This document shows positions 16,240 to 63,080 of a stretch of DNA of 64,000 bases, piece after piece (the first letter of the stretch is position 1; each line of letters opens with the position of its first letter). The translations under genes and the position numbers were made by a program. Source of the DNA: Hysterangium stoloniferum (Eukaryota > Basidiomycota > Agaricomycetes > Hysterangiales > Hysterangiaceae). Where the stretch lies: positions 62,001 to 126,000 of the forward strand of contig WHVD01000182.1 of the NCBI GenBank assembly GCA_015178975.1, in the 5' to 3' direction. Below the pieces are notes generated by a model. The model was given only the letters and a program-made list of their open reading frames with translations. It was not told the DNA's origin and ran no database searches.

Positions 16240-17808
16240 CTTGTATGCTCTGAGTAGAGCTGGGGCGTTTTGGAGGTCAGTGCTGTTTAGCCAGGAGTCT
16301 TCCTTGGGTCCATAGCCTTTCCACCTGATTCAAAAAAGCAGATGATTTTGAAGTTTCATGTGGCCAGTAATGGCTTCGACTTCGTATTCTTCCTTGTTTG
16401 AACTTAGCTCTCTGGGGTTCTTGAGTAGTTCCCTAGGGCCAAACACTTCCAGGGATGAGTGATATTTCTTAAGGTGGGCTTGATTAATGACGGGGTGCAT
16501 TTGGTACTCTGGGGGTATTTTGAGTCTAAAGACTTGGGAATTAATTTTTTCCAGGACCTGAAATGGTCCGATGCATCTTTGGATTAGTTTCCTTCCACTA
16601 CCCTTAATTTTCACCAATTCTAAGGAATGGGGGTTGACTAATACTAGATCCCCCTCCGAGATTTCCTTGACCGGTTTTCAATGCTTGTTGTAGGATCGAG
16701 CTTGGGTTTCTTGTGCTCAGGCGATTGAGTCCCTCGCCATTTGTCTGTGACTTTCCAATTCCACAATCCATGAGTCCACCATAGGAGTTTCAGACAGTTC
16801 CCTGGGGACTATAGGATCGTCTCCTCCTAGTACCCTGGACATTCCCCTTGGTAAGGACCCCATTAAGAGGAAGGCGGGAACGTATCTAGTCGAACTATGA
16901 ATGGTGGAGTTGTAAGTGTTGGCTACTATCCCAATCCATTTCGACCATTCTTCCTTGGCTGATGAGCAGTAAGCCCTCAGCATTTGTTCGAGGGTGGTGT
17001 TCATATTTTCTGTCTGTCTGTCCATCTGAGGGTGGTGAGAAGAAGAGACGGCTAGAGCGGTTCCATATATCTTGCAAACTTCCCTCCAGAACCTACAGGT
17101 CCACCTTTTGTCTCTATCACAGATAATCCTGGAGGGTAGTCTGAAAGGTGATGCCACTCGGTTTATGAAGATCTGTGCGAATCCTTCAGCGGACAAGTTA
17201 GAAGAGGTGCATTCACAGATAACAAAGTGTGTCAGCTTGTCGACCACCATGAAAATGGCCGAGTAAGAGTTGCTGCCGGAAGTTGGTAGTCTGGTTATGA
17301 GATCCATGGAGACTACTTCAAATGGCTTAGAAGGTACATCAGCTGGTCTGAGGGCTCCCTGCAGTGCGGAGTGATCAATTTTTGTCTTCTGACAGGTGTC
17401 ACAACTGCGAGCATACACCGCACAATCCTGTAACATTCTAGGCCAGAAGAAGCGGTCTTTCATGAGCAGGAATAGTCTACACCCTCCTGCGTGAGCTCCT
17501 TTGAAGGGATTATCATGTATCAGCTTTAGAATTGTGGTTGTCATATTGTTAGGAACACAGATCCGACTTTTCCAGTATGAATTGCGAAAATACAACAGTC
17601 CCTTTTCTCCGATGAAAAAATGTGAAGCGGTAGCTACAGCATTTGGGGATTTCAGTTCCTTGACGTAGTAGCTTCTGAAGGTGGGGTCCTTCTGATACCC
17701 TTCCGAGAACTCTTTTAGGAATCTTTCATTGATGCTTATGAGCACATGAAGGTTTAAGGAAAAGAATAGCGATTCATCCACTTCATCGTCTCTGGGGAGG
17801 TTATACAA
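16240..17808 (-). pseudogene. pol: Gypsy-4 integrase and chromodomain
   Basis: From 17808 downward: the HHCC zinc-binding domain (HDNPFKGAHAGG ... CDTCQKTK), then the catalytic core with MDLITRLPTS (first Asp), ICDRDKRWTCRFW (second Asp) and DRQTENMNTTLE (Glu). The GPF/Y-like segment RCIGPFQVLEKI is near 16570. A chromodomain follows: EEYEVEAITGHM... up to 16330, then after a frameshift RWKGYGPKEDSWLNSTDLQN to about 16245. Chromodomains of this class direct integration to marked heterochromatin, which fits the nested insertions here. The frameshift inside the chromodomain and between segments makes this copy inactive. Confidence 0.88.
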
Positions 17809-17862
17809 ATCCCATTCAGTTTGTGAGGTGTCCTCTGGAGTTCCGATGGGTTCTACTAGTTC

Positions 17863-18660
17863 TCATTGTGTGACAAAGATGGCTCTCCTCGTGGGATTAT
17901 CCTCCTGTGGTTTCTCCTCAGTTCCCTTGCTGAGTGAGCTTGACACGATTGTCGGGAGATCATCTCCAGCTGGACTCACTGAGTGGGGTACTCGTGGTAG
18001 TCTAGATAGGGGATTGATGTTACTGTGTACTTGTCCAGCACGATGTAGTATTTCGAGGCCTGGGTATGCTGCATACACTGCCCCCCGTGTGGCCAGTTGT
18101 TGATTGGTGTTCTTGTATGACCTGGCCCATTGTAAAGCAGCATGGTCCATGATGAGGAGTATGTGCTCCCCTTCCACGAATGGTTGAAAATGAACCAGGC
18201 CTTCCTTAGCAGCTAATGCTTCCCACTCTGTGGCTGAATAGTTGCATTCTGGTTTCTTGAGGGTATGACCCCAGTAAGCGATAACGTGCTCTACTGTAAC
18301 GCAAGTATCCTCAAATGTTTTCACCCAGGAGTCCGTCCAAGTGATCTTGGGAACCTTGGTCTTAAAATGGGTGACAAACGTTGGCACTGGTTTTGACTGC
18401 TCGAATGCTGATTTCACTTGGGTATAGATCTTCGTGTTCTTTAGATCCCGTAGAGTCATTTTTTGTACTTGCTGCAGACAGCAGCCTAGGGCAAAGTCAG
18501 AGGCGTCCATGTAGAGATGGTAGGGCATTCCAATTGTGGGATGTGCTAGAACTGGAGAAGAGCTCAGGGCTGCCTTGACGTCGTTAAAGGCTCGTTCCTG
18601 GTCTACTCCCTAAGACCACTGCATGCCCTTTTTGAGTAGCGAGAAGAGCAGGGATACAGT
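17863..18660 (-). pseudogene. pol: Gypsy-4 RNase H domain
   Basis: 221 codons at 17863-18528 start MPYHLYMDASDFALGCC (first catalytic Asp), then CNYSATEWEALAAKEG (Glu in EWEAL) and IMDHAALQW (Asp). This is followed by the HRAGQVHSNINPLSRLPR connector typical of Gypsy RNase H, where normally HxxGxxNxxADxLSR is seen. Homologous tether sequence extends right to about 18660 with frame interruptions. It sits in order between RT (right) and integrase (left). Confidence 0.88.
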
Positions 18661-19045
18661 CCATGCATAGAAGGATATGTAGGGCGAGAAGTACAATACC
18701 ATACCCAGAAAACATTGAAGCTCAGACACCTTAGTTGGGGTTGCTAGTTTCGATATGGCTCATACTTTCTCTTGGTGGGTCGAAAAGCCTAACCACGACA
18801 CCTTGTGTCCAAGAAGGAGAATAGAGTTGTAGCCTACATAGCATTTTTTTGGAGAAAGAGTGATGCCAGCTGAAATTATTGCTTGTAATACTCGGTCCAG
18901 GTGTTTTATATGATCCTCCCAGGTCTTAGAAAAGATTACTATATCATCTATGTAGACTAGACAGAATATCCACAGATAGGGTGCCAGCATGTTTTGCATG
19001 ACTCGCTGGAAAATGGAATGTCTGTTCCTCAAACCGAAAGGCATC
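18661..19045 (-). pseudogene. pol: Gypsy-4 reverse transcriptase, C-terminal part
   Basis: MPFGLRNRHSIFQRVMQ ... LVYIDDIVIFSKTW carries the catalytic YIDD box, followed by the thumb/connection LSPKKCYVGYNSILLLGH. The gene is split immediately upstream of MPFGL by the 1.75-kb LTR I. The N-terminal RT resumes at 20797, where the interrupted segment LWQFRR is coded. Confidence 0.9.
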
Positions 19046-20791
19046 TGTAATGTATTCAGGGGATTCTCTTAGATAGCTCAATATATGGTATAATGTCACA
19101 GAGCTTCAACAATAAAATAAGCAAAGGTCCAGTAATTTAAATACTGATCGATTAATGAGCTGTGCTATTAAGCTTAAACAACTCAAATCAATGCTTATTT
19201 TGATTATTGAAAGGTTCAATAGAACTGTGTATGACTCTTTTTAGCAAATAAAAGAACTATTCCTTGAGAATAGGGGCTAGAAGCTGAATATATGTGCAGT
19301 AACTTAGCAGAGACTTGATATAAAGCTTCGGATTCTTGTATGCTTATTTGTAGCTATTAATAGCTATTTAACAAGGTGTTAAATAATTTATTAATAGAGA
19401 AAATAACTTGTATTGGATTATCTGAGTGCTTGTACTTGATTAATTCAATAAACTTAGGGCTGGGCCTTGAATAATCTAGTATTGGCAGGGAAATTCAGTA
19501 AGGATACTTAGATACTTATTAGGTTTATTATGTAATTAATAAGCATAAAGGGTAGCTGTGAGGCTGGGGGAACTTAGAAGATTAGCTAAGTTCAGGAGTT
19601 GCTGACAAAGATTCAAGATGCTGCAAGTGTAGGTGCTTGCAGTGAGTGTATCAGACTAAGGCTATTATTGTCCTTAGGATGATTAGATAAGCTTCTGAGC
19701 TGTGCAGTAAAATGTGTGAGATAGGATGATTTTATTGGAAACTTGGCCCTCCTTATATACATTTTGATAACTAAATGATTAGCTAATTATTTAGTTTATG
19801 AGGTCACTAGTTAGATCATAATGACCTCATATTCTACTTATTATTTACCCTTTATTTATCACATGATTCCCCTCTCTGAGACAAGGGTTCTAACCTCTTG
19901 CTTGAATATGAAGGTTCAAGGCCGCAGTCCCGGGACGGAAGCAAGCGATGAGTCGGCAGAATCAATTAATGACTCGGGTAGTCACATCCGTGACCTGTGT
20001 GACATCCCGACACCGGAGGCTTATTGTGAAGAGTGGTGGAAGTTCTGACTGTTCTATATACGAAGAAATGAGTAGAAAGGAAGGATATTGACCTATTCGG
20101 TGCAATATAAGAGAAAGTGAGAGAAAGAGCACGAGATGACGAAGGAGTCAACGAGTGCGATGGTTCGAGTGGAGGCCTCGACTATTACAGTTCGAGGCCA
20201 GAAGTGTTTAGCAGTTCAGATATTGCTACTTATGTAGTAGCTGACACGTTACCCTGATCACCGCTCATAGTAGACCTAGTTTGTGTCTTATGAGTGGTGG
20301 TTCTTGGATTAAAGTGTGTCTGAGTTCTAATTGGTGCTGAGTGCACCCACAAGTATACACAATGCTTCGAACTAATGAAATATGCAAGATTCGAAGAATA
20401 TGAAAGATAGAAAAATATGAATAAAATATGTAAAATATAAATGAAATAAAAGGAGTGTTTTACCACAATGATACTGTGGTAAAAGCATACTCCTCACACT
20501 TATCTAATAAGTCACATGACTTTAAAAATGCGCAAACAAGCTGCAGCAAGGTGCCGAAAAGCAATAACTAAGTAGATAAAATATAAGTAATTAGTTAAAA
20601 ATTATAATAAATTAATTAAGTAATAATAGCATAATATGAGTCCATATATGCTATTATTTATGCGAAGTTAAAAGGAATAAGGCCTATTTTTCACAATAAA
20701 CATAGTAAAAAATACAATAAAAATTCGAGAAAATATTAAATAACTCAAAGAAAATTAAGAGAACATTATGAGATAATGCTGATACCTCACA
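19046..20791. mobile_element. Solo LTR-like insertion I in Gypsy-4 RT (1267 bp plus nested G)
   Basis: Starts TGTAATGTATTC and ends GATACCTCACA, with near-identical flanks GCATC (19041-19045) and GCACC (20792-20796). It interrupts the RT between the codons for LWQFRR and MPFGLR. AT-rich with no open frame above 80 codons. Removal of the nested G LTR and its CTTAT duplicate leaves 1267 bp. Orientation is not established. It could be a long solo LTR or a non-autonomous element. Confidence 0.7.
20025..20498 (-). mobile_element. Solo LTR, family G (474 bp), inside insertion I
   Basis: TGTGAAGAGTGG...ATACTCCTCACA with perfect 5-bp duplications CTTAT at 20020-20024 and 20499-20503. Exactly the same length as the three other G copies. 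Confidence 0.95.
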
Positions 20792-20796
20792 GCACC

Positions 20797-22400
20797 CTTC
20801 TAAATTGCCATAGTCCTTGATGTGATTGAAAGGCTGTTTTGTGTTGGTCTTCCTCCAGCATTTCTAGTTGGGTGAAACCAGCTAGGGCATCAAACGAGGA
20901 TAAAATGTTGGATCCCGAGAGTGCTTGCATAATTTCTGATTGTCAGGGCAAGGGGAACGAACTCATCTGGGATAGTAAGGTTGTTCAGTTTTCGATAATC
21001 AATGACCACATGAGGCTTATTATTACGTTAGACTACAAAGGCAGGCACTCCCCAAGGGCTTTTCGAAGGTTCAATGACTCCTTGTTGGAACCAGGTGTCC
21101 ATTTGCTCATCTATGACCTTCCTGTTGGCAGGGGAAATTGGAAACATCGGTACAGACACTGGTTGCGCATTGGTTTTCAGTGGGATAGTGGCCTTGCTGT
21201 CTACTTGGCCCAGTCTTCCGTCAACTCCAAACACTTGCACATTCTTAGTCAATATTGAGCTAAGGCGAGGCATAATGTCAGGAGGGACATCAGGTCCTAA
21301 GTTGACCAATTTATGTAGATCCTCCGAGGAGAGCCTCTCCAAGGAAGGAACTTCCAAACTCTTTGGGCCTGCAGGATCAAAGTCATCTACCATCTCGTTT
21401 CCTGAGGATACCATAGATGGTCAGGGGCTGGAGGTGTTGTCTGTTTCCAGCTTAGAGATGCTTTCTATGAAGTGGGCAATCTTCGAGCTTGCGACTCACA
21501 TCGATTCCTCTTCCACTCGAGATCGAGGCTTTTGGGCCCAGGCTCGGGCGTCGTGAATTAGACCGACGATCTCTCCTCTTCTGATAGTTTGAGGAGTTAA
21601 GGTCGGATTAGCCAGTGGCACCACAACCTTTTCTTTAGAGGTAGCGGTCGTGGGAGTGGCGAGGATGGTCCCATCTTCGTTCTGTAAAACTATGCCCTCC
21701 ACAATCCATTCCCCATCCTCTAGGTCCCCAGTAAAGATGGGTATTAACCTAACCACCTCAAGCTCTATCGTGCAATCTCCCAGGGCTCTCATGACTCTGT
21801 CAGCGTGCATGCCCTTGTTGGGTTTGGACGTTAGATTAGTCGGCATGAGTCGGCATGATTAATTCATCTTCCAGAGAGATCTTGTTGACTGAAAAGGTTA
21901 ACGGGACTGGTTGGTTGGAGGAGCTGGCAGGAATGAATCCTGCTCTCCCCGGGAGGATTAGCCTTGATCCCAGGGGTTGGTCTCGCAACATTCCCATCTC
22001 ATAGTTAATATGGAAGTCTTCTCCTAAGAGGATTGGTACGGTCATCTCTCATACGTCGTAGGTTTCTGCGTTAAATCACAGCAGGGTTCCTTTATCATCC
22101 CTAAGGTAGATGGGAACATTAATGTAACCCAGTACTCGGACACTCCCGGTAAGTTGTATTAATCACAACTTAAGTCCTTGGTTTTCAGCTTAGGCTGATC
22201 CTTCAGTTCTCAGTAGAATTCCTCTGACATGAGGGACAAATTGGCTCTGGTGTCCAGTCTAATTTTGATTGGGTCTTCCCAATCGGGATTCCCTACTCCT
22301 CCGAATACATGTAGTGCTGAACACCAACACTAGAATATCCTCCCGGTGGCTCCCTCTTTCGGTATATGATTGAGGCGTCCTCTTTCATTAGCTTACTGGA
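20797..22400 (-). pseudogene. pol: Gypsy-4 protease and reverse transcriptase N-terminus
   Basis: Reading from the right: the protease motif IRLDTRANLSLM near 22250, where the usual Gly of D-T/S-G is Arg, so the active site is damaged. Then ILLGEDFHINYEM near 22020, a linker (21496-21846), and RT fingers (PANRKVIDEQMDTWFQQGVIEPSKSPWGVPAFVV, 21028-21130; shortened match to Gypsy-1 near 8690). Next come DALAGFTQLEM and LWQFRR near 20810-20890. Multiple stops and frameshifts. It continues into the RT C-terminus across insertion I. Confidence 0.85.
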
Positions 22401-32436: not shown

Positions 32437-32679
32437 TGTAAAGGGTCGAGTAGTTTACCACTCAATGTGCAATTGTTATCGACTAACAATAGTGCAAAGT
32501 ACAATCGACTAGTAGTTATAGGTAGTCAAGATGTAGATTACGATCGACCTTTAAGGTGCGATCGATAGATAATTACAAGGGCGGATCGACCTTACGGTGT
32601 GATCTGACTGTGTAGCTAGCTGGGCCGATGGCCAAGTAGATGAGAGAAAGTATATATGGCAAGAGAGATAGAGTGAAGG

Positions 32680-33222
32680 TGTTAAGTGCCGTGTCAGGAA
32701 CTTATTCCAGAACTATCAGAAAGTCACTGGGAACTTGGGAACTATCGGATAGGGTCAGGACGTTGGCTTCAGCTTATGTGCTGTGCCTCTATGCAAACGC
32801 TCAAAGTCTTTAATTTCAGAAGTGAGACTTACAATGGAAGATACGGATATTCAGAGTTCTGAAGAGTTCCGAATATCGAGCATACAGAAAGACGGAAGAG
32901 GGAATAAGAAACTAAGTTGATATCAGATCTAAGGTAAAGTACAAATTCACGGAAACTAATATAAGTCTTCTTGTTATTGTACTACAAACTGAGACCATAA
33001 TAAGATGGAAATAGGAGTATCCTTAAATGGGAATACAATAAGTCATATCAGGGAGACAATATTCCGAAAAGGGAATACAATAGACAAACGAGTGAATACT
33101 TGTCAACGGACAAATTACCAAATGTGGAACAAGGGAAGAATGCGGAAGATACGGTAACTATGATGTTCCGTAGTCAGAGATCGGAAGTCGGATATTGAAA
33201 CATCCGGGAATGGGTCGTAACA
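32680..33222 (-). mobile_element. 3' LTR of the D element (543 bp)
   Basis: TGTTAAGTGCC...GGGTCGTAACA on the plus strand. Same length as the D LTRs at 2521 and 44776. Holds the supergroup-2 stem-loop at 32765-32787 and a single copy of the sequence that is amplified 23-fold in the partner LTR. Confidence 0.92.
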
Positions 33223-33234
33223 GTACCCCCCTGT
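33223..33234 (-). other. Polypurine tract of the D element
   Basis: On the minus strand AACAGGGGGGTAC abuts the 3' LTR start TGTTACGACC. A purine-rich block directly 5' of the 3' LTR is the plus-strand primer site expected in LTR retrotransposons. It also fixes the orientation of the element. Confidence 0.7.
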
Positions 33235-33350
33235 TAGGCCGAAATCCCATAGAGGCAATTAGGTACTGAGTGATTGAAGCGACGGCTGATTATTATGTGT
33301 CGTGAAATTTACACAATTCTGGAGGTGAGAGTTTCAGCTGCTGTCCTGAG

Positions 33351-33357
33351 TATAAAA
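33351..33357 (+). promoter_or_regulatory. TATA box of the antisense accessory gene
   Basis: TATAAAA in the context GAGTATAAAAACCTCC, 50 bp upstream of the ATG at 33407. It is followed by a pyrimidine-rich TTTTTGTTTCTTTATCCCC leader just before the start codon. It lies between the polypurine tract and the gene and points away from the 3' LTR. Confidence 0.6.
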
Positions 33358-34212
33358 ACCTCCAAATATTTGAATTAATGTTTTTGTTTCTTTATCCCCA
33401 ACTTGCATGTCGATTCGTCGGCCATTGTTCAACACTACCCCGGAAGATTCAGAGGCCAAAATTGCCATACTTCAAAAAATGTCGAAGGTTGCAGAACTTC
33501 AACAAAAATGACAGAGGATGGAGGAGATGAAGCGGTGACAAGAGGTGGAGGAAAAAGTGTTGATGTGGGAGTTGAAGGAGATGGAAGAGGCGGAAAAATG
33601 GGAGTTGGAGTGAGTGAAGGTGGAAAAGGAGGCGTGGATACGGAAAACGGCAGAGGTTCAGAAGAAGAAAGAAGAGGCAGAAAGACTGCAGCGGGAGTCT
33701 GAGGAGGCAGAAAAATGTAAGGAGATAAGGGAAGGAAAGGTAAGTCCAATCCATAAGTTTCCGTAGTTTCTGTTACGACCGTGTCGTAACCCATGTTGCA
33801 ACCCGATGGTCTCCGAGAATACTACAGTCTATCGATGTTCCAAGTTATTGATCAAGTCATCATTTCGGCAAACTTCAGAACACCGATGCTGATGTATACC
33901 TTCACGGCGATCAAACCCCGTTTACGCCCCTGTCAAAATATACTCTACCATCTGGTTATACTTTGATACGTCCCCTTTCATTATGATGATCCGTTTTACT
34001 CTATGTTTCACATATGCCCATATATACCTGTAGCCCGTGGACTATTCCCTTTTCTCGTAATTCTGCTCTCGGCTAAATCTCGGCTTCCGATCTTATCGTA
34101 ACTTTCCGGTTCATAGTCAAGCTTATTTGTCAATGCCGTTTTCCACTCTTCCCTTAGTTAGTAGTTTCTAGATGCTGATAACTCGTATATAAGACCCACT
34201 GTAATGTAACTA

Positions 34213-34290
34213 CTAGACAATCAGAATATCAACTTAGAATATCAACTTAGAATATCAACTTAGAATATCAACTTAGAATATCAACTTAGA
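34213..34290. repeat. 13-bp minisatellite in LTR E
   Basis: About five copies of AATATCAACTTAG in a row, followed by a related GATCGACTTAG. Confidence 0.85.
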
Positions 34291-34399
34291 TCGACTTAGA
34301 TACCCTCTAATTTCCGACTCCATTATCTATTCACGACCACCACATTCCGACTCCATCTGATTTACGATTCAACCTACATTTACGACTTCAACCTGTAAT

Positions 34400-34645
34400 C
34401 TCCGACTCTCAGTCCCCGACACTCTCAGTCCCCGACACTCTCAGTCTCCGACTGTCTCAGTCTCCGACTGTCTCAGTCTCCGACTGTCTCAGTCTCCGAC
34501 TGTCTCAGTCTCCGACTCTCAGTCTCCGACTCTCAGTCTCCGACTCTCTCAGTCTCTGACTCTCTCGGTCTCCGACTCTCTCAGTCTCCGACTCTCTCAG
34601 TCTCTGACTCTCTCAGCCTCCGACTCTTGGTCTCCGACCCCTCAA
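34400..34645. repeat. CTCAGTCTCCGA minisatellite in LTR E
   Basis: Roughly 15-17 copies of a 13-17 bp unit CTCTCAGTCTCCGACT with length variants. It accounts for most of the extra length of this LTR compared with the copy at 1131-2514. Confidence 0.85.
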
Positions 34646-35226
34646 CCCAACCCTCAACTTATCCTTCGGTTTCCGATCGGTGGTTTACCGAGAGGTTTAC
34701 TTGACAGGACTAGTTTTCGCCCGCCCGAAATTTAAGGACACCTGACAGTAACTTGCGAGGGCGCAGCACATAAGCTGAAGCCAAGTCCTTCTGTTCGGTC
34801 CCCGTCGGTCTGCCGACATCCATCAGTTTCTGCTCTTAACAGTTTCAACCGATAACTATTGGGTACAGCGAAAAGCCGTGGAGGTGGAGGTAGAGGGAGA
34901 GGCTGGGCCTTTGAGTCCTAAAGTAAGTGCCATCTGCAAGAGGTCGGTAGTTGATTAACTTCCGAAACAGAAGCAAAAGGCCAAGGCTCCGGAACGGATG
35001 GAAGTCATCCACGACAGTCTGTGTTATCGATGTTCAATTCGAAATATGACATGTTGGAAACAGAAGGTAAAATGGGGTGGAACTTGCTACCCCTGCATGG
35101 TTCTCAAACTTCCATGCACTCTCGCTGTGAAAAGGTTCTGAAAGGTGAGAAGGTTCAGAAAACTAACGACGGGGAAGGTTCGGGAGTGGCCAAAATGGCG
35201 GAAACTGAGGTGCCGAACACGGATAG

Positions 35227-35900
35227 GGAGGGTGTTTATAATTACTATAATCTCAAATATTTACTAATAAAAGTCTTATTTTTACAAAACTCCATCTTTA
35301 AATAGTGATATCTATTCTGAAACAATTATATCATCAAAAAATAACCATCAGAAATAGTTCTCCATATTACATCTTATACAACCCATAGTTATTTAACAAA
35401 TTCCATTGTATATAATTTCCTTCCTTTTACAGATGCCTACTAATACTTTTATTAGTACTTTGTTTTTTAAAAGTTGAAATGTAGTTATTTCCATGTAAAA
35501 TATGTAAAATATTATTGGAAATTTTTCATATCACAGCTGTCTTTATTAAGTAAAACCCCCTATATATTCTGGGTATGTTGAATCAAGTAGAAATCTGTTC
35601 AGATTAACAGATCCATTCTGAAGTAATACATATGTATTTAGAGGTGCCAATGATATACATATGCATGGAATGGACTATCTAAAGGTATCTATTTTTTAAA
35701 AGTATTAGTGTTTCAAACTACTAATTTTTTTATTGTCTACTCATGTCCGGAAAGATTCTTTAGTTTGTAATGTATGAGAGAGTTTAAAACTTTCAAAAAG
35801 TTTTAAAAACCAAATTATGTTTGAATCACATCTCAGATGTTTAAATGACCTTTAGAGTATATTAGAATTTGGTATAATTAATAGTTTTCAGATATCCTCT
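35227..35900. mobile_element. MITE copy 1 (674 bp)
   Basis: AT-rich, non-coding. Starts GGAGGGTGTTTATAA and ends GATATCCTCT, giving imperfect terminal inverted repeats (GGAGGRTRT). A 3-bp duplication TAG (35224-35226 and 35901-35903) flanks it. It is nearly identical over its whole length to 62221-62895. It interrupts the accessory gene between codons for NTD and SMGVK; excision restores the frame. No transposase is present, so mobilisation in trans is likely. Confidence 0.88.
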
Positions 35901-36150
35901 TAGTATGGGTGTCAAACTCCTCAAGGACACCGTTGACGCGTTAGTCTTTATCGGGACGGAACTTATGAAAATGCAGGATGCACTGGATCGCCATAATGAT
36001 ATCCAGGAAAAGGGTTTCTGTTCGTTGACCTGGAATTTCCAGAGGCAAAACGAGTTTCTGGAGAAGGTAATGGTTAGCATCGGTATTATCGCAGTTTCTG
36101 AGAGGTTTTCCGATAAGGCGAGGGAGCAATCAAATGATCCGTTGGCGGAG

Positions 36151-37604
36151 TGTGAAGAGTGGTGGAAGTTCTAACCATTCTATATATGAAGAATATTGAC
36201 CGTTTAGGTACGACACATAGTTGTATTGACTGTCTAAGTTCAATACATGCTGAACAAGTATTGACTATTTAGTTCAATATGTCTGGGTAAAGTAACTATC
36301 TCAGGTAGAGTAGATTGCTACAACGAAATAAAGGAATCGACCGTTAGGTGCGATTCCGAGTGACTGTGTTAGGATACACACACAAGGCAGGTTTCTGGAG
36401 AAACCCGCGGGATATCCGGTCGGACTTGGCTTCAGCTTATAGGCTGCGCCCTCACTAGATCATGTTGTCCAATTTCAAACAGGTGGACGGGAATCCTGGG
36501 GAGTCCGGGCAGGTTCGTGGGTCATAGGTCGTAGGTCGGAGGTCGTGGGTCGTGAGTCGAGATAGTTGAGAGAGGTAGATGTGCCGGAGCCCGTGGGCTC
36601 CGACTAGTGAGAGCAATGTGAATCAAGCAAGGTTTTAGAGTGGAAAATGGATTAGATTACTGGGGGGAATCTAAGTTAATTTTCTGACTGGATTGTATGT
36701 ACAACATCTGCCAGTTAATATAGACCGTGGAGTGAATGACATACCAAATCCAGTAATGATGAAACGAAACTAACAAAACATAAAACGGGAATAATAAACA
36801 CCAAGTTTGGTGTTAGGAATGGGACGTAACGGAGCAGAGTCCGAATCGTGACAAAGCATAACCCATAACGGGAAACGGAGTGGGAGTGGAGTTCAAATCA
36901 TGACAGGTCATTTGACTAAAACAGGAACGGGGCTCGATTAGAGCGGTGATGGGATTCTGAGCGGGGTCCGGTGACTGATGCGTGAGATGAAGACGGACAT
37001 AGACAGAGATGGATTCCAGGGGAAGTCCAGTGACTGATATGTGTCGTAAGAAGGTCGAACGTAACGAGTTTTGATGTACGGAGTCCGGGCGGGAATTCCT
37101 ATAAACAGACAATTGGTGCGTGTAGGGCGTGGTGGTGTACAGGTTAGTGCCCAGAGTCTGGCGGGATTGTCCGGTCATAACAGACTGCTCGAGTGTAGAA
37201 AAGAGTAACAAGAGTTGAATGGTAGAATAGCATGGATGTTGTCTGCACAGATTGAGATATAAATGGGGTTTCGACTGGTACAGTTCGAAACTAAGATTAT
37301 GTAGATAGTTGAAACCCATCTGTGATGGTCGAGACGATACCTCAATCACGACTTACAGGACACTAACTGTGTGTCTGGGTAAGTTGTGGTTGCGAGGTAA
37401 AAAGGTGTCTAAGTTTTAACTACGGGCACTAGAATACATAAGTCTGGCGTGTATGCACCCACAACAGTCAATGTACCGCATACATAGGTCGTCAAACTAA
37501 TTATAAGTGTATAATAAAATAGAGAGAGTAGAAATAATAAAGGGAATATAGTATGAGCTCATCCAGACTATATTTCCTGAGTATATTTCACCATACCTCT
37601 GACA
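36151..37604 (-). mobile_element. Solo LTR, family C, in the accessory gene (split by LTR F)
   Basis: TGTGAAGAGTGG...TACCTCTGACA with perfect 5-bp duplications CGGAG (36146-36150 and 37605-37609). Removing the 818-bp LTR F leaves 636 bp. Excision of the whole block rejoins the codons for PLAE and CVEKRW in frame. Confidence 0.92.
36365..37182 (-). mobile_element. LTR, family F (818 bp), nested in LTR C
   Basis: TGTTAGGATAC...CCGGTCATAACA interrupts LTR C between GAGTGAC and GACTGCTCGAG. Only GAC is duplicated in the strict reading. Carries the supergroup-2 stem-loop at 36428-36450 with an unchanged stem and a changed loop (TTATAG). Contains a short GTCGTGGGTC/GTCGTAGGTC repeat near 36520. 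No internal coding region. Confidence 0.82.
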
Positions 37605-37839
37605 CGGAGTGTGTCGAGAAAAGGTGGGAGTCAGGAAAAGGACCGGAAAGTGAAGATGAAGAAGTACAGGATATGATGGAAAGTGCGGAGATTGCGGATG
37701 ATACGGGAGTTGAAGCGGAAGGAGGGTTTGGGGTGTCAGAAACATTAAAATAGTTGCAAATATATTTGACTTGTATGATTTCAAAGAATGAGCGTGATAT
37801 CGGAAGTATCGGAAACTGAACAGAAAGAAAATGGAAAGG

Positions 37840-39630
37840 TCAGAGTGATGTTAAAGGTCCAGGTTTGCTCGGATAAGCTGTGTGGAAGTCAGTGACAATT
37901 TCCATAGCATGTCCAAGTTCCGTGGCCAATATCCATGAAGTTTCCTCGTCAGTACCTTCATAACCTGCCCATTTGACTAAATAGAGCAATTTACAAGTAT
38001 GTCGGTGATTGTCATTTTTAGAATCCAAAATTTTGGAAACTTCAAATTTGGGCTCTCCGTCAATGATGACCGGAGGGGACGGAGGTTGAATACATTCCGG
38101 GATTTTGTTAGGAACACAGGGTTCTAACATGGAAACATGGAAGACAGGGTGGTGTGAAGAGTGGCGGAAGTTCTGACCGTTCTATATACGAAGAAATGAG
38201 TAGAAAGGAAGAATATTGACCTATTCGGTGCAATATAAGAGAAAGTGAGAGAAAGAGCATGAGATGACGAAGGAGTCAACGAGTGCGATGGTTCGAGTGG
38301 AGGCCTCGACTATTACAGTTCGAGGCCAGAAGTGTTCAGTAGTTCAGATAATGCTACCTAAGTGGTAGCTGACACGTTACCCTGATCACCGCTCCTAGTA
38401 GACCTAGTTTATGTCTTACGAGTGGTGGTTCTTGGGTTAAAGTGTGTCTGAGTTCTAATTGGTGCTGAGTGCACCCACAAGTATACACAATGCTTCGAAC
38501 TAATGAAATATGTGATATTCGAAGAATGTGAAAGATAGTAAAATATGAATAGAATATGTAAAATATAAATGAAATAAAAGGAGTGTTTTACCACAATGAA
38601 ACTGTGGTAAAAGCATACTCCTCACAGGTGGACTGCTCACATACTATCAGGAAATCGGAGAGTCCATGAGAGTGAACCAGCTTGTGCTATAATTTCAAAA
38701 GGGCCGAAGAATTTCTCAGCGAGCTTTTTAGAAGGTCGGGTGGTATGGAAGAATTGAGCTTTGACAAAAACCTGATCACCAATTTTAAAGTTAGGAGGCG
38801 GGATCCTGTTTTTGTCTGCAGAACATTGATAATGTTTCTGTGCAGAAGAAATAGCTTTCCAAAGTTCTTAATGTAATTTGTCGAGGTTGGTAATAAATTC
38901 TTGAGCACGGACAGAAGCCAAATCTCGTTCGGAATGTACTGTGAGATTTGGATTATAGCCTTTGTTGGTGAAAAAAGGAGAGACACCAGTAGTTGCATTC
39001 GGAGAGTTATTGTAGGCGAATTCCGCAATCGGAAGAAGGGATTTCCAGTTGTCCTGTTGATAATTGCAATAGATGCAGAGATATTGTTCCAATGTTTGAT
39101 TAACATGTTCCGTTTGTCCATCACCTTCCAGGTGGTATCCTGAGGTGAAGTGTAGTTTCATGTTGAGGGCTTTTCCAAGGGCCTGGAAGAAATGGGAGAC
39201 AAACTTGGAGCCTCGATCAGAAGTTATGTGAGACAGAACTCCATGTTTGGAAAATACGTGAATAATGAAAAGTTCTGCTACATATAATTGTAAGGACGTG
39301 ATTGTATCATGAGTAAGTATGAAAATGCCTTGTTTCAATAATTGATCCACAACAACTAGAATGGATGTAAAGCCTTCAGATGTTGGAAGTTGCTCGATAA
39401 AATCCATGAAAATTGAGTTCCAGGGCTTTTCCGGTATCGGGAGTTGCTTGAGAAGGCCGTACAACTTATGCCTCTGGGTTTTAGAGTGTAAGCAGGTGGT
39501 GCATGACTTACAGAACTGGGTTATGAAATCTTGGAGGTTGGGCCAAGTATATTCTCTACGGATTAGACCAAGAGTATTGTTAATGCCGTAATGTCCAGAG
39601 ATTGGGTGTTTGTGTTTGTACTGAAGTACG
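37840..39630 (-). pseudogene. pol: D element integrase and chromodomain (interrupted by LTR G)
   Basis: From the right: HHCC finger (FCKSCTTC near 39500), then the core starting FMDFIEQLPTSEGF (first Asp), SDRGSKFVSHFF (second Asp) and DGQTEHVNQTLEQ (Glu), so the DDE triad is present in sequence. It continues to the C-terminal SPFFTNKGYNPNL and, across the G LTR, to MLEPCVPNKIPE and a complete chromodomain: EPKFEVSKILDSK ... LLYLVKWAGYEGTDEETSWI. The stop is at 37842-37840, 86 bp from the stop of the convergent accessory gene. A stop near 38866 and the G insertion inactivate it. Confidence 0.9.
38153..38626 (-). mobile_element. Solo LTR, family G (474 bp), in D element pol
   Basis: TGTGAAGAGTGG...ATACTCCTCACA with perfect 5-bp duplications GGTGG (38148-38152 and 38627-38631). 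It separates the integrase C-terminus from the chromodomain. Confidence 0.96.
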
Positions 39631-40055
39631 CGGAGTCGGAGATTGTTGGAATCTGGAACATAGATACGTCCATCGAGACAGATAAAACCTTGAGAGTCTT
39701 GTGACCATCAGGGTTGGTCGGGATTATCAGGAACTTCTAGATGTGGCTTGAGCTGGATCGGAAGTGAGTGCAGAAAGGATATCTTGCTGTAAGTGTTCAA
39801 TGTCGATAATCATAATGCTATGCATAATTGGATAGTAGAGGAAAGTCGCTCGAATAGATGTGGAAAGTTGTTGCATTGTAAAAACCGGTTTCAAGTTATG
39901 CGGATTAACAATGGCGTAGTTACTTTCCCCCTCTTTAGGATAGATGTCCCATCATTGAGTCATGGCATCTGGTTTTCCACCAAGGCATCTGGGTTGGAAA
40001 TGGATAATCATGTTGAAAGCGGAAAGGAATTCAGACCAGCAGGCTTGCCAGCAGG

Positions 40056-41513
40056 TTAAAAGCTTAGTGGTAGAAAAATATTCGAGATTTTTGTGATCAG
40101 TACAATGTCAATGGGAATTGCGGAACCTTCGAGATAATGACACCAATGTTTGAAAGCCTCAAAAATAGCCAAAGGTTCCTTATCATGAACGTCGTAGTTG
40201 AATTCAGACACTGAAAGTGTCTGAGAAAGGAATGCAACTGGATGAATGTCACCGTCAGAATCTAGAATGGAAAGAATCACGGCAATTGCATAATTGGAAG
40301 CATCGGTTTCCACAATAATCGGAACATCAGGTTTCCAATGAGAAAGAATTGGGGCGGAAGTGAAAGCATTTTTCAAAGTCTGGAAAGCAGAGCGGCATTT
40401 GTCGTCAAAGACCCATGGTTGAGTTTTACGGGTAAGATGAGTAAGCGGTATTGTAATATCTGAGTAATTCCGAATAAAACAATGGTAAAAGTTGGCGAAA
40501 TTTAAAAATAACTGAATGTCCTTGACTTTCCGTAGTTCGGGCCAATCACGGACAACTTGGACCTTGGTTTCATCCATACGGAGACCCTCAGGTCTGATAA
40601 TAAAACCTAAGTATTCAATAGAATCCATGTCAAAGTAACATTTTTTACCATTGGCGAAAAGACTGTTTTTGTGGAGTCTTCGGAAAACTTCACAGACCTG
40701 TTCATTGTGAAGAGCGGGATCCTCAGAAAATACCAAAATGTTGTCCAAATAGACTATAACACATACATCAAGCATGTCGGAAAATATATCATTAACAAAA
40801 CATTGAAAAGTGGAAGGGGCATTGGTAAGGCCAAACAGCATAACCAACCATTCAAAGGATCCATAGCGAGTCCGAAAAGCAGTTTTCCATTCATCACCCT
40901 CGGCAATTTGAACCAAATGATAGGCGTGTTTGAGGTCTATTTTGGTGTAGATCCGAGCTTTCTGTGGGGCATCGAGTAAATCGGTAACGAGTGGAAGTGG
41001 ATACTTATCTTTCCGTGTGATGGAATTTAATCCTCTGAAATCGACGCAGAGTCGAAGGGAGCCATCCTTCTTTCTGATGAAAAGGACAGGTGCTCTGTAC
41101 GGAGACTTTGAGGGACGGATAAAACCTATCGACAGATGTTCATCCAGGAACTCCTGAATAGACGAAAGTTCCGATTGGGATAATGGGTAAATAGGTCCTA
41201 ACAGAGGGTTTGAACTGGGCTCAATATTGATTTTTAAGTCGTAGGGCCTATGTGGTGCAAGCCGGTCAGCTTTTTGCTTACTGAAAATGTCCGCGAAATC
41301 ATGGTATTTTTCAGGAACTCCTTCCAGGTTGGCTTTTAGCTCGGATAGTTCTGGAGTTGCAAAATGTCCAGATGCTTCATCAACTTTTAAGCTGATCGAA
41401 AAACACTGCGAACCATCCAGTTTACTTGCCCTAACAAATGCTGAAGTGTTGATGAGAGAGATTTTTGGAGGCACAGAGGTTTCAATAGAAGCCGGAGATG
41501 CCATTGAGGCCAA
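40056..41513 (-). pseudogene. pol: D element reverse transcriptase and RNase H
   Basis: 485 open codons. RT: HRPYDLKINIEP, YPLSQSELSSIQEFLDEHL, FIRKKDGSLRLCVDFRGLNS, ITRKDKYPLPLVTDLL, KIDLKHAYHLVQIAEGDEWK, then the catalytic box VIVYLDNILVF. The second Asp of YLDD is Asn, which should abolish polymerase activity. RNase H follows: IVETDASNYAIAVIL and [14 protein letters not shown]; the frame is lost at [10 protein letters not shown], where [12 protein letters not shown] is expected. Despite the length the enzyme is predicted dead. Confidence 0.92.
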
Positions 41514-42030
41514 AAAGTCATTGGCTGGAAGAGACGCTGCAGGAGGAACTGAAGTGTCGGGAATTCAGAAATTAATACTGCCCAATACCCAGTCAATCAA
41601 CAGATTATATCGGGTGAGCCAGTTGTATCCAAGAACTACTGAACAGCTAGAGTCCAACTGTGTTACGAAAAAGGTAACCATCTGGGATGTTCCACAAGGG
41701 AACCGGATAGACATGTCGCAGGCTTGGGTAATTGCCATATTGCTAGTGCCGTCAAACAAATGCAAAGAAATTGTGGGAACAGAATGGAGTTTCAGATTAT
41801 GTTTCATGGCAAAGGTGGTATCTACAAAACAGTGTGTGGAGCTGGAATCTATCAGAGCTTGGAACACTAAATTTCCAAGAAGGTCAGAGATGGGTTTTAC
41901 AAATAAAGAATCGGGATTAGAGAGAGCGGACACATTGAGACGGATAATCTCGGAAACACGGAGAGAGTCAATGCAACCCTCTGTCCATGCAGATTCTGGA
42001 GGGTTGCTTACTCTTTTTTCAACTCCATGG
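41514..42030 (-). pseudogene. pol: D element aspartic protease
   Basis: Frame 41565-41933 contains [15 protein letters not shown]: the retropepsin motif is D-S-S where D-S-G or D-T-G is the norm. It is followed by the hydrophobic [15 protein letters not shown], the second conserved element of Gypsy proteases. A stop after SINF separates it from RT; in the sister copy at 49112-49960 the same region continues in frame through WIPDTLVPPAASF into RT. Confidence 0.85.
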
Positions 42031-43226
42031 TGGGTTTTTCCTTAGATGTTGTAGTCGTAGTGGAAGTTACTGCGCGGGCCTTGGAAGAGTTAGATCTAAC
42101 AGTACAGTTGGAAACCTTGTGTCTGCCTTTCCCGCAGAAAAGGCAGAGGTCATTGTCCATACTTCATTGTTTCTCCTTTGGGGTGAGTTTACCATTGGTA
42201 CCCAACAAATGGGAAATGTCGGGTTTGTCGGAAGTTGACTGTTTATCCTTGTTGGATTTCTTTTTTCCAGTCAGATTTGCCAGTATTAGTGCCAGAGTTG
42301 CCAGTGTTATTGCCCGAGTTGTTGCCGGAAGACTTGCTAGTTGACACCTTGTTATTCTGAGAACGTTCCGTCTGGTTCTCTCGAGAGACCTCAGCTTTTC
42401 GTTCCCAATAACGGGCATCAGATGTCTGAGATTTGATCTGCATGAGTTGGAGAGTTTTTGGCTTCCCATCTTTGCAGATCTCGTCTTTAAGGCGTGATGG
42501 AAGTCCCATATAGAAATGGTGCCTGAGGGCGGAATTGTCCCATCTACATCGTGTGGCAAGGGTATTGAACTTGACGAGATAATTGGAAACTCGTTGATTG
42601 TCCTTCATCTTAAGCGTCATTAATTCATTTTCCGCTTTGCTGGATTGATCGTAAGGTCCAAAATTAGTTTCCAGTTCTTCCACAAAAGTGTCCCAGTCAT
42701 CGAGCCATACAGGTGTCTCGTCGGATATTCCAGATAGTCCAGGTTCGAACCAATCCTGAGCAGTATCCTTGAGATAAGAGAGCGTGAAATTGACTTTTTG
42801 ACTGTCAGATTTAAATGCAGCGGGTCGATCACAGAAACTGAAAAGGCATTGGAGAAGGAAATTCTTCAATTTTTTCAGATCCTTGCTGGTAAATGGTTCA
42901 GGTTCTTTGACTCCGGTGCGGGATGATTCTTTACTATCCTCAGCGGATTTCAAGTAGTCAGCGAATTTCACAATGGAGTTGATAAACAACATTTCAGTCG
43001 GTTCATTGGAAGATTTCTTTTTCGATGTCTCCGGCTGATCTTCTGCTTCATTGTCAGAAGTGTGGGGAATATTGGGATCCTTTGTTACCTCAGTAACTTC
43101 CTGAGTAACTTCTTCGACAGAAGCTGATGTTGTCGGCTGATTTGGGGTTTCGGGTTGAGTGGTATAAAGTTGCAACGGGGATTAAAGTTGGGATGGTCCT
43201 TCGGCAGCTTTGCGTTTGGGACCCAT
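42031..43226 (-). pseudogene. gag: D element gag
   Basis: ATG at 43226-43224 starts MGPKRKAAEGPSQL. Codon 15 is TAA (43184-43182), where the sister gag at 51430 has CAA. The body includes FINSIVKFADYLKSAEDSK, the retrotransposon-gag-like FTLSYLKDTAQDWFEPGL and VEELETNFGPYDQSSKAE. Near the C-terminus a CCHC knuckle CLFCGKGRHKVSNC lies at about 42120-42160, after a frameshift near 42260. Precursor Gag packages the genomic RNA through this knuckle. A single C to T change plus a frameshift inactivate it. Confidence 0.88.
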
Positions 43227-43260: not shown

Positions 43261-44291
43261 TGTTAAGTGCTGTGTCAGGAACTTATTCCGGAACTATCGG
43301 AAAGTCACCAGGAACTCGGGAACTATCGGATAGGGTCAGGACATTGGCTTCAGCTTATGTGCTGTGCCTCTACGCAAATGCTCAAAGTCCTTAATTTCAG
43401 AAGTGAGACTTACATACAATGGAAGATACGGATATTCAGAGTTCTGAAGAGTTCTGAATATTGAGCGTACAGAAAGACGGAAGAGGGAATAAGAAACTAA
43501 GTTGATATCAGATCTAAGGTAAAGTACAAATTCACGGAAACTAATATAAGTCTTCTTGTTATTGTACTACAAACTGAGACCATAATAAGATGGAAATAGG
43601 AGTATCCTTAAACGGGAATACAATAAGTCATATCGGGGAGACAATATTCCGAAACGGGAATACAATAGACAAACAAGTGAATACTTGTCAACGGACAAGT
43701 GAATACTTGTCAACGGACAAGTGAATACTTGTCAACGGACAAGTGAATACTTGTCAACGGACAAGTGAATACTTGTCAACGGACAAGTGAATACTTGTCA
43801 ACGGACAAGTGAATACTTGTCAACGGACAAGTGAATACTTGTCAACGGACAAGTGAATACTTGTCAACGGACAAGTGAATACTTGTCAACGGACAAGTGA
43901 ATACTTGTCAACGGACAAGTGAATACTTGTCAACGGACAAGTGAATACTTGTCAACGGACAAGTGAATACTTGTCAACGGACAAGTGAATACTTGTCAAC
44001 GGACAAGTGAATACTTGTCAACGGACAAGTGAATACTTGTCAACGGACAAGTGAATACTTGTCAACGGACAAGTGAATACTTGTCAACGGACAAGTGAAT
44101 ACTTGTCAACGGACAAGTGAATACTTGTCAACGGACAAGTGAATACTTGTCAACGGACAAGTGAATACTTGTCAACGGACAAATTACCAAATGCAGAACA
44201 AGGGAGGAATGTGGAAGATACGGCAACTATGATGTTCCGTAGTCAGAGATCAGAAGTTGGATATTGAAACATCTGGGAACGGGTCGTAACA
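43261..44291 (-). mobile_element. 5' LTR of the D element (1031 bp, expanded)
   Basis: TGTTAAGTGCT...GGGTCGTAACA. It is 488 bp longer than its 3' partner: 484 bp are 22 extra copies of a 22-bp unit and 4 bp an ACAT duplication near 43412. Supergroup-2 stem-loop at 43346-43368. Confidence 0.93.
43674..44179. repeat. 22-bp minisatellite, 23 perfect copies
   Basis: Unit CAAGTGAATACTTGTCAACG plus GA, 506 bp in total, with no interruption that I could see. Each junction contains ACAAGT-GAAT-ACTTGT, a perfect 6-bp stem with a 4-nt loop, so the array could fold into serial hairpins. All other D LTRs carry a single copy of the unit. Confidence 0.97.
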
Positions 44292-44600
44292 GAAGGTTAG
44301 TTTTTAGACAAGACCCCAAACCAGTACTTGCGTGTGCAGGTGATGGTTGTTGGGGTTGAAAAGTGTCTAAGTTTCTTGCGTGTGACTACTACTGTGACAT
44401 GTGCGTACTTCTTGTGGGCTAGAGCACCCACAAATATACATGGATTCTCGGACTAATAAAAAGGGGTATGACCCGTATTTATGAGTGATAGAAAAGAAAA
44501 TAAAAATATAAAACATAAAGGAAATAATGGAATTATAAAGCGGCTAAGGGGTAAGGCTTAGAGTCTTCAGTCATGCCTCCTATGTGACCTATCCTTCACA

Positions 44601-45425: not shown

Positions 45426-46060
45426 TGTGAAGAGTGGTGAAAGTTCTAACTGTTCTATATACGAAGAATATTAACCGTTTAGGTACGACATGTAGTTGTA
45501 TTGACTGTCTAAGTCTAATACACGCTGAATGAGTATTGACTACTTAGTTCAATACATTTGAGCGAAGTAGCTATCTAGAGTAGAGTAGAGAGCTTAAGAC
45601 GAATAAAGGGAATCGACCATTAGGTGCAATTCTGAAAGACTGCTTCAGTGTAGAAAAGAGTAACAAGAGTCGAATAAGGGAATAGCGTGAATGTTGTCCA
45701 CACGGGTTGAGATATAGGTAGAGTTTTGACTGGTACAGTTTGAAACTCTGATTGTGTAGATAGTTGAAGCCCGTCTGTGACGGTCGAGATGATACCCCAA
45801 TCATAACTTATGGGACACTAACTGGGTGTCTGGGTAAGTCATGGTTGCAGGGTAAAAGTGTCTGAGTTTTAAACTATGGGCACTAGACTACATAAGTCTG
45901 GCATGTACGCACCCACAAGAGTCGATGTACTGCATACATAGGTCATCGAACTAATTATAAGTGTATAATAGAATAGAAAGAGAGTAGAAATAATAAAGGA
46001 AATATAGTATGAGCTCATCCAGACTATATTTCCTGCGTATATTTCACCGTACCTCTCACA
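45426..46060 (-). mobile_element. 5' LTR of Gypsy-3, family C (635 bp)
   Basis: TGTGAAGAGTGG...TACCTCTCACA on the plus strand. In sense orientation it runs into the primer site and gag of Gypsy-3. Its 5' edge abuts a second C LTR in opposite orientation. Confidence 0.88.
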
Positions 46061-46557
46061 CTTGTGGGTGTATACGCACCAGACTTATGTACTCTAGCAC
46101 CAGTAGTTAGAACTCAGACACTTTTTACCCCACAACCACAACTTACCCAGACACCCAGTTAGTGTCCTGTAAGTTGTGATTGGAGTATCGTCTCAACCAT
46201 CACAGATGGGCTTTAACTACTAGTGCAATCAGAGTTTTGAACTATATCAGTCAAAACTTGAACCATTACCTCGATCCATGCAGACTATATCCATGCTACT
46301 CTGTTATTTGACTCTCTTGTTATTCTCTTCAACACTCAAGTAGTCATTCAGAATCGCACTTCACAGTTGATTCTCCTTTATTTGTCTTAGCTCTCTATTC
46401 TACTTTAGATAGCTAATTCTCTCAACTGTATTGAACTAAATAGTCAATATGTGTTTGGTCTGTATTAGACTTAGATAGTCAATACATCGTTGTGTCGTAC
46501 CTAAATGGTCAATATTCTTCATATATAGAATGGTTAGAACTTCCACCACTCTTCACA
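46061..46557 (+). mobile_element. Truncated LTR, family C, head-to-head with the Gypsy-3 LTR
   Basis: Starts inside the family-C sequence at CTTGTGGGTGTATACGCACC, lacking the first about 130 bp, and ends CACTCTTCACA at 46557. The opposing orientation to 45426-46060 creates an inverted LTR pair. No duplication was found. Confidence 0.82.
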
Positions 46558-47640
46558 CCAAGCAACCAGCTGATAGGGCAGAGATCAGTGACAAGTATGT
46601 TTGAGCTGCCAGTTATTGTGCAATCATCAATGTGTGATGCTAGAATGAGCAAATGTGTGTGAATTCATGCAATGAAAACACCCCAGTCAGCTTCAGTATG
46701 GTGAAAGCCTAAGGTAGCAAGTTCTTTACTGAGCTGCTGGAACCATTTGAGTGAACCTTGCTTTGAGCCATAGATAGCTACTCATAGACATGCAATGAGA
46801 TCCTTTCCCCCTTTTGAAAAACTGGGTGGAAGTTCCATAAATATTATTTCATTGTCATCAAGTTTCCCATTAAAGGAATGTGCTATAGAAATCGAATACA
46901 TCCACATCCCAGTCATGGTGTGCAGCCATAGCCAGGATAAGACAGATGGATGAAAGATGAGTGACAGGAGTATATGTTTCATGGTAATCAACACATTGTA
47001 CTTGTGTGAAGCCTTTCACAACGAGTCGAGCCTTATACTTGTCAATTTCACCTGCTGAGTTCTTCTTTATCTTGAAGATCCATTTGCAGTTGACAACATT
47101 GATGTTCTTTGCCAGTTGGGTATGACATCCCAGGTGTGTGCTTCACCAAGACTCTTAAGTTCAGCCTTGATAGCTTCATTCCATCAAGACCAATCTGATC
47201 GTTTCCATGCCTCATCTACTGTGCATGGCTCCAATGCTTCTGTCTGCAGGTTTCTGTATGCATTGCATAAGTGATGTCATCATCCCCCATTTCCCAAGTG
47301 CCAGCAGTAGTGTCAGCAATGATGCCCACACTATCTCCACTGCTTTCATGTTGGTCTTGCACCTCAACACCTTGGATTCCATGGGGGACTACTGGGTTCC
47401 CAGTCCAACCATCATGTATACCAGTGCCATCACATAGCATCCACAAGTATGGGGATTCAGTGTGTTGATGGGTTGAGCATCTTAATGTAGGTACTGATTC
47501 ATCAAGCTGTGGGTATGATGGGTCTGGGTTGACTTCTGGTGGTATGGTTGAGCTGACTTGATATTTGAGGTGTCGAGGAGAGGTTCAGGTAGGTTAGAAC
47601 TACTGTGATCATTATGAGTATCATGCTGATCATTCATTGA
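46558..47640 (-). pseudogene. pol: Copia pol fragment: integrase-RT linker and reverse transcriptase
   Basis: From the right: an acidic, serine-rich linker, then the RT entry (MDLQDKEELS region near 47070, KGFTQVQCVDYHETYTPVTH near 46990-47020), AMAAHHDWDVDVFDFYSTFF and NGKLDDNEIIFMELPPSFSK near 46800-46880. The catalytic box region ILASHIDDCTITGSS is near 46620-46660, followed by TDLCPISWLLG at the left end. Several frameshifts are present. RNase H, integrase, gag and LTRs are absent. The left end is cut by the truncated C LTR and the right end by a C-like LTR. Confidence 0.85.
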
Positions 47641-62800: not shown

Positions 62801-63080
62801 AAAACCAAATTATGTTTGAATCACATCCCAGATGTTTAAATGACCTTTAGAGTATATTAGAATTTGGTATACTTAATAGTTTTCAGATATCCTCCATTAT
62901 GTCTCTATCAACAAATGCTCCGCACAGGATATGGCGGAGGAAGCTGAGGAGCAAAGGTTATATGAAGCGGTTCATGGACTATCTATACAAGGACAAGTAA
63001 ATAGCTCTGATGACGAATTGACTTTTGTTTCCATTTATGCACCCCATGTCGGAGACAAATTAGTAAGGGAGGAAAATTGA
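59839..63080 (+). pseudogene. gag: Gypsy-2 gag (split by MITE copy 2)
   Basis: ATG 59839 (MTTGKNQTPRSSSAPSGSM). A frameshift near 60085 is followed by the frame from 60168, which ends at TAG 60549-60551 after KVDY. Further in-frame stops are TGA 61128-61130 and TGA 61515-61517. The block 61611-62220 contains YIQRRVKLYHFLYGF and the zinc knuckle CWICGSPEHFKIDC. The MITE then intervenes, and the frame resumes YVSINKCSAQDMAEE at 62896, with another TGA at 63078-63080. Three of the stops are single C to T changes relative to Gypsy-1 (CAG to TAG, CGA to TGA twice). Same architecture as Gypsy-1. Confidence 0.88.
62221..62895. mobile_element. MITE copy 2 (675 bp)
   Basis: GGAGGGTGTTTATAATTAC...CAGATATCCTCC with terminal inverted repeat GGAGG/CCTCC extended imperfectly, and a 3-bp duplication ATT (62218-62220 and 62896-62898). 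Excision restores the Gag frame KMSH-YVSIN as in Gypsy-1. Nearly identical to copy 1, so both moved recently relative to the surrounding decay. Confidence 0.9.

Follow-up and report, generated by a model that had tools for sequence, protein, structure and literature searches.

Several retrotransposons with long terminal repeats (LTRs) carry, besides gag and pol, an additional gene on the opposite strand. The closest described case is brtn of Boty, a Gypsy element of the ascomycete Botrytis cinerea, which is documented through the title of a paper (Zhao et al. 2011, Virology 417:248, cited in PMC8365987 and PMC4227169) and a mention in PMC7264820; the gag-pol of Boty includes a chromodomain (PMC4227169). 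The element dealt with below, D, lies in a 64,000-nt stretch of a Hysterangium stoloniferum contig (WHVD01000182.1, positions 62,001 to 126,000; 'the window' designates this whole stretch). Like Boty, D is a fungal Gypsy element with a chromodomain and an extra antisense gene, but its host is a basidiomycete, an ectomycorrhizal agaricomycete. A first-pass annotation of the window, made from the letters alone, had noticed the gene and knew of no described fungal equivalent, a claim that has to be given up since brtn is a precedent.

In plants, antisense open reading frames (ORFs) are reported for Grande (gene23), RIRE2 and PvRetro13 (PMC7264820) and for Retand (TRP28, PMC11963269). The gene23 of Grande has its own promoter and specifies a nuclear protein (PMC7264820). 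A regulator role has been proposed for plant antisense ORFs. Besides their hosts, these elements differ from D in several respects: Retand is not a chromovirus, and the D protein has no match to SMC or to TRP28 (PF04195), the latter being absent from the matches of 16 exon-3 members of D and from those of exon 1. Two introns and a six-cysteine cluster are not mentioned for plant antisense ORFs in the accessible passages of PMC7264820 and PMC11963269. An antisense promoter is also present in the 3' LTR of the human T-cell leukaemia virus (HTLV; PMC7264820).

No description of the Hysterangium antisense gene was found in the literature searched. As far as these searches show, the novelty lies in the basidiomycete host, the two conserved introns, the six-cysteine cluster, the distribution over two families and the population-level evidence for selection. 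Such a case opens to testing both the role of antisense accessory genes and a possible exchange of such modules between retrotransposons.

Conservation of the antisense gene in independent copies of D

Our conclusion is that the gene is probably a constitutive antisense accessory gene of an agaricomycete chromovirus family, a nuclear nucleic-acid-binding regulator being the best guess as to its product. Its position and orientation, its presence in independent copies, its exon-intron structure (by conservation), the purifying selection acting on it and the existence of a homologue in a distant family are established. D itself is a chromovirus, i.e. a Ty3/Gypsy element with a chromodomain: it has LTRs, GAAGG target site duplications and Pfam matches to PF03732, PF00078, PF17919, PF17921 and PF00385, and its domains follow each other on the minus strand in the correct order (gag, reverse transcriptase, RNase H, integrase, chromodomain). 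As the first-pass annotation had it, the LTRs are flanked by GAAGG, and a plus-strand gene with a TATAAAA box and two phase-0 GT-AG introns occupies the interval between the pol stop codon and the polypurine tract (Table 1). The gene converges with pol, the stop codon of which is at 37840-37842, and 86 bp separate the two stop codons.

The link between gene and element was surveyed with a 301-bp pol-end query containing no antisense-gene sequence; the best 40 of 1121 first-look candidates, which are close relatives of D, were examined. They include the window itself, a copy on contig C111 that is 98% identical and may be its allele, and a pair, C469/C148, that is apparently one and the same element on two contigs. 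Exons of the gene were found beside the chromodomain end in 33 of the 40 matches: in 23, a match to exon 1 or to exons 2-3 lies at most 5 kb away, and the remaining 10, once retrieved, all displayed the LTR, the gene and the end of pol in the expected sequence (10/10). In the other seven at least the end of exon 3 is present, its tail being contiguous with pol, and five of these seven also adjoin a match to the C-terminal part of the protein. Among these best 40 of 1121, no copy was seen whose chromodomain is followed directly by the polypurine tract. The first-pass annotation had suggested asking whether the gene recurs in independent copies and would have taken such direct copies as the sign of a chance insertion; it is the recurrence that was observed.

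That the insertions are independent follows from their outer LTR flanks: for the 28 flanks compared, there were only partial matches, none of them equidistant from the LTR. The 10 partial matches correspond to repeats whose distance to the LTR varies, and three of these are in inverted orientation. On a wider scale, the public protein P0003, used as query, gave at least 150 scored matches to the antisense protein in the D clade, and there were at least 40 in family 2 (see below); 118 of the 150 scored P0003 matches were devoid of internal stop, under a ranking that favours well-kept copies. P0003, a hypothetical protein that maps to contig C2 at 100%, is the public annotation of a reading frame in a rearranged copy (L098, G000:C2:1252619-1253056 plus flanks), in which exon 3 of the antisense gene, with the intron-2 acceptor retained, follows immediately on the sense end of pol.

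Selection was assessed on an alignment of 37 copies, which remained of 40 distinct loci once L026, L037 and L038 (cut or interrupted) had been excluded; L063 was omitted as a duplicate of L064, and the window copy does not belong to the alignment. The copies were drawn by similarity to pieces of the window gene, as the best 40 scored of 339 and 314 candidates, a choice that biases the sample toward well-preserved close relatives. The start ATG is kept in 37/37 copies and the TATAAAA box stands at the same place in 35/37; the GT-AG borders are found in 35/37 copies for intron 1 and in 37/37 for intron 2. Exon length is a multiple of three in 32, 36 and 26 of the 37 copies for exons 1, 2 and 3, respectively. 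In exon 3, variability is 0.216 at codon position 3 versus 0.101 and 0.109 at the other two positions. The ratio of nonsynonymous to synonymous substitution rates (dN/dS), a check suggested by the first-pass annotation, was of 0.256, 0.183 and 0.247 in frame for exons 1, 2 and 3, versus 0.70-1.55 in the other two frames. For the chromodomain end (28 copies) the values were 0.304 in frame and 0.76-0.79 off frame. The constraint on the antisense protein is thus akin to that on another protein of the element (0.18-0.26 versus 0.30), a trait of antisense additional ORFs between pol and the 3' LTR (aORF-3R). The frame-specific dN/dS also rules out a constraint on the RNA instead of the protein. The six cysteines are conserved in 221 of 222 cells of the alignment, to be compared with a mean majority fraction of 0.865.

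The ratio of nonsynonymous to synonymous changes (N:S; stop codons and changes present in exactly two copies, 31:24, being omitted) was 161:68 for single-copy changes and 120:134 for changes found in at least three copies (Fisher p = 3e-7). This contrast is what decay of dead copies, layered on constrained source lineages, should give.

Both introns are kept throughout the alignment of 37 copies, but not at a fixed length (52-55 nt for intron 1, 46-49 nt for intron 2); since the lengths differ modulo 3, the reading phase shifts between copies. This fits the proposal of the first-pass annotation that the introns persist because they are antisense to the genomic RNA: being antisense to gag-pol, they would leave that RNA unspliced there, and reverse transcription would retain them. 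Placing a gene antisense to the genomic RNA is thereby suggested as a route for intron retention in retroelements. Expression, as it can be predicted from the sequence, would probably start from a promoter that belongs to the gene and lies immediately internal to the 3' LTR, of which the TATAAAA box is only a hint, and splicing of three exons would yield a protein of about 344 residues.

The antisense gene in related families

In subfamily L099 the pol end is 82% identical to that of D and the antisense protein about 49-56% identical, depending on the exon, with the same order of parts. For part of exon 3, the proportion of synonymous differences between L099 and D (pS) was 0.84, i.e. saturated, and that of nonsynonymous differences (pN) 0.22.

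A far more distant homologue is found in family 2 (L081 and eight further copies), whose reverse transcriptase is 28% identical to that of D over 387 residues. It agrees with the D gene in its three exons, in its cysteine spacing and in the phase 0 of its introns, which are about 50 nt long; its exons end in REGK and SPK, and the junctions following REGK and separating SPK from K are common to D. Alignment of the joined exons of family 2 and D scored 193, versus a maximum of 81 with shuffled sequences (z = 17), and BLASTP on exon 3 gave 40% over 53 residues (E = 5e-6 for this single comparison). Here too dN/dS is lower in frame (0.30-0.36) than off frame (0.52-1.70; nine copies), and both exon junctions are likewise read through in P0002, a public gene model of this family.

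Family 3 is closer to D by its reverse transcriptase (45% identity). The antisense gene was not found in the 2.2 kb examined, and a sense-strand ORF of 160 residues is there instead. This ORF (L080:242-721 (+), also in L079, the two being 51% identical) lies directly 3' of the chromodomain and has no Pfam match; all 150 scored candidates (242 first-look) match it genome-wide. Ten chromodomain loci were retrieved in all: the antisense gene was seen in L081 only, the sense ORF in L079 and L080 and a similar ORF in L084; L082 begins like L081 and shows a long sense ORF in the next stretch, presumably by insertion, and L083, L085, L086, L087 and L088 were uninformative as to the antisense gene. 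The window also holds an element of the family-2 clade (pol 16249-21940): no antisense gene was seen in it, but its 3' region contains an apparent copia-like insert, and no LTR of the element was identified.

Families within one genome thus differ in the 3' accessory gene that they carry. Since D shares its gene with family 2 (28%) but not with the closer family 3 (45%), the 3' module does not track relatedness in pol. Either a loss with replacement in family 3 or an exchange of 3' ends between families would account for this distribution; within the D clade the antisense protein changes more rapidly than the end of pol, so that the resemblance of the D and family-2 proteins would lean toward exchange. 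It is conceivable, if rather speculative, that the polypurine-tract segment, the promoter region and the three-exon gene form a transferable 3' control module, i.e. a cassette passed between chromovirus lineages and encoding a regulator of the HBZ or Tat type.

The protein and the explanations considered

The protein consists of a charged segment, an acidic linker, a six-cysteine cluster preceded by a lysine-rich stretch, and a conserved C-terminal domain. The part of exon 1 that was tested (93 residues) is 55% charged and contains one proline or glycine. The first-pass annotation had read coiled-coil codons here; heptad periodicity turned out to be no better than in shuffled sequences, its score being reached by 462 of 1000 shuffles for D and by 226 of 1000 for family 2. 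The CX2CX6CX10CX2CX6C spacing that it had pointed out is exact, and is the sole such motif among the window ORFs of at least 30 residues. A spacing of this type, found in both D and family 2, falls within the accepted range of the fungal Zn(II)2Cys6 cluster (PF00172). The proposed identification as Zn(II)2Cys6 therefore agrees in spacing, but not in profile matches: PF00172 was not listed for any of the 16 D exon-3 members at E<=1, with filters that drop most weak matches, and in family 2 it stayed below the cut-off (13.3 and 9.9 bits versus 21).

HBZ of HTLV-1, an animal retrovirus, is an antisense-encoded nuclear regulator, a basic leucine zipper protein whose gene starts at the 3' LTR end. 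The D gene is likewise antisense from the 3' LTR end, no sequence relation being claimed. Because of this analogy and of that with gene23 of Grande, together with the cysteine cluster and the lysine-rich stretch before it, the protein may well regulate the element in the nucleus by binding DNA or RNA, an assignment that we hold tentatively. Such a regulator would act on transcription from the LTRs, or on integration together with the chromodomain integrase. The main rival, possible but rather doubtful, makes the protein a structural or integration partner of the particle, which would bind element RNA or DNA, or integrase, and aid nuclear import or target choice. Its conservation, near that of the chromodomain end, suits this role, as would contacts of the charged segment, cysteine cluster and C-terminal domain with proteins and nucleic acids, and roles in nuclear import are discussed for plant antisense ORFs (PMC7264820). 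However, separate antisense expression would require coordination with the sense RNA, and no domain match speaks for it. That the antisense transcript acts as RNA (by double-stranded RNA, small RNAs or interference with pol transcription), the protein being secondary, appears unlikely: the transcript would indeed converge on pol, and antisense RNAs are known for other elements (PMC7264820), but codon-position periodicity, low in-frame dN/dS and the near-absolute conservation of the cysteines indicate selection on the protein.

The gene had been called a cargo or regulatory gene of the element. It does stand as an antisense, spliced and protein-conserved gene of the element. A cargo serving the host rather than the element is very improbable: the TATA box and introns are gene-like and the rearranged copy L098 bears a host-protein annotation, but the examined copies hold the gene at the same site inside the element and decay along with it, and three protein searches of limited sensitivity brought up no sequence of another species that is likely to be a host orthologue. 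As for capture of a host gene fragment, or chance insertion, in the window copy, it can practically be dismissed. Captured extra genes do occur in one or a few copies of an element (PMC7264820), but here the gene or its 3' end adjoins all 40 pol-end matches, which contradicts such an insertion for the D family, and a homologue exists in a family with 28% reverse transcriptase identity.

Several results weigh against the conclusion that we favour, i.e. an accessory gene of the element with a nuclear regulator as its likeliest product. The window copy of the gene is dead, with three in-frame stops in exon 1 and a frameshift in exon 3, 3' of the cysteine cluster. All three exons are open in only one of the 37 aligned copies (singly, exons 1, 2 and 3 are open in 5, 29 and 17), and stop-making changes common to at least three copies number four in exon 1, one in exon 2 and one in exon 3; dead lineages or recurrent mutation thus contribute. 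In L081, a copy of family 2, the interval from LTR to ATG contains no TATA box. Searches of Pfam, NCBIfam and PDB gave no match above cut-off, hence no function, and public homologues were found in Hysterangium proteins only, by three protein searches of limited sensitivity (which returned one match, none of 102 candidates, and three matches at E<=10).

The window copy and neighbouring repeats

Coordinates are collected in Table 1. The inserts that the first-pass annotation had excised (solo LTR E in intron 1; a sequence resembling a miniature inverted-repeat transposable element (MITE) and solo LTR C with insert F in exon 3) were all found, as was the exon-3 frameshift. An uninterrupted version of the gene is present in dozens of other copies, a recurrence that chance could not nearly explain.

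Table 1. Element D and its antisense gene: positions in the window
Feature	Position	Strand	Remarks
Target site duplication GAAGG, left	32675..32679	.	
3' LTR of the element	32680..33222	-	TG..CA ends, target site duplication; 95% identity to 43261-43698
Polypurine tract and inner segment (GGCCGAAATCCC..GAGGC)	33223..33256	-	family 2 counterpart very similar
TATAAAA box of antisense gene	33351..33357	+	
Exon 1	33407..33739	+	ATG at 33407; highly charged segment; three in-frame stops here
Intron 1	33740..34868	+	phase 0; enlarged here by solo LTR E
Nested solo LTR E	33771..34841	.	target site duplication GTTTC; not in 98% identical copy L010
Exon 2 (54 nt)	34869..34922	+	acidic linker ending GPLSPK
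Intron 2	34923..34970	+	phase 0
Exon 3	34971..37753	+	six-cysteine cluster and C-terminal domain; insert-interrupted; TAG 37751-37753
Six-cysteine cluster CX2CX6CX10CX2CX6C	35022-35117	+	within exon 3
MITE-like insert in exon 3	35227..35899	.	94% copy at 62221-62894
Solo LTR C in exon 3	36151..37605	.	holds insert F (about 36366-37182); target site duplication CGGAG
C-terminal end of pol with chromodomain	37840..38150	-	PF00385 E=3.8e-7
Integrase (H2C2, rve)	38871..39707	-	
Reverse transcriptase and RNase H	40059..41564	-	
gag	42246..43181	-	PF03732 E=1.6e-13
5' LTR	43261..44291	-	enlarged by 22-bp tandem repeat
Target site duplication GAAGG, right	44292..44296	.	

The copy on C111 (G000:C111:123831-127484), possibly the other haplotype of the window element, lacks E and the MITE-like insert. 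Its exon 3 terminates in the same residues where C begins, so that C is common to both copies.

The two LTRs of the window element differ by the number of 22-bp units, with 23 copies in the 5' LTR and one in the 3' LTR, and a 16-bp tandem repeat is present inside solo LTR E, at 34373-34668. A further repeat, the initial 43 bp of which match the beginning of LTR C, interrupts pol at 38151-38626, and other copies of this repeat are located at 20025, 51887 and 56468. Finally, two copies of LTR C stand back to back in opposite orientation (45426-46061 and 46058-46558), forming a long inverted repeat.

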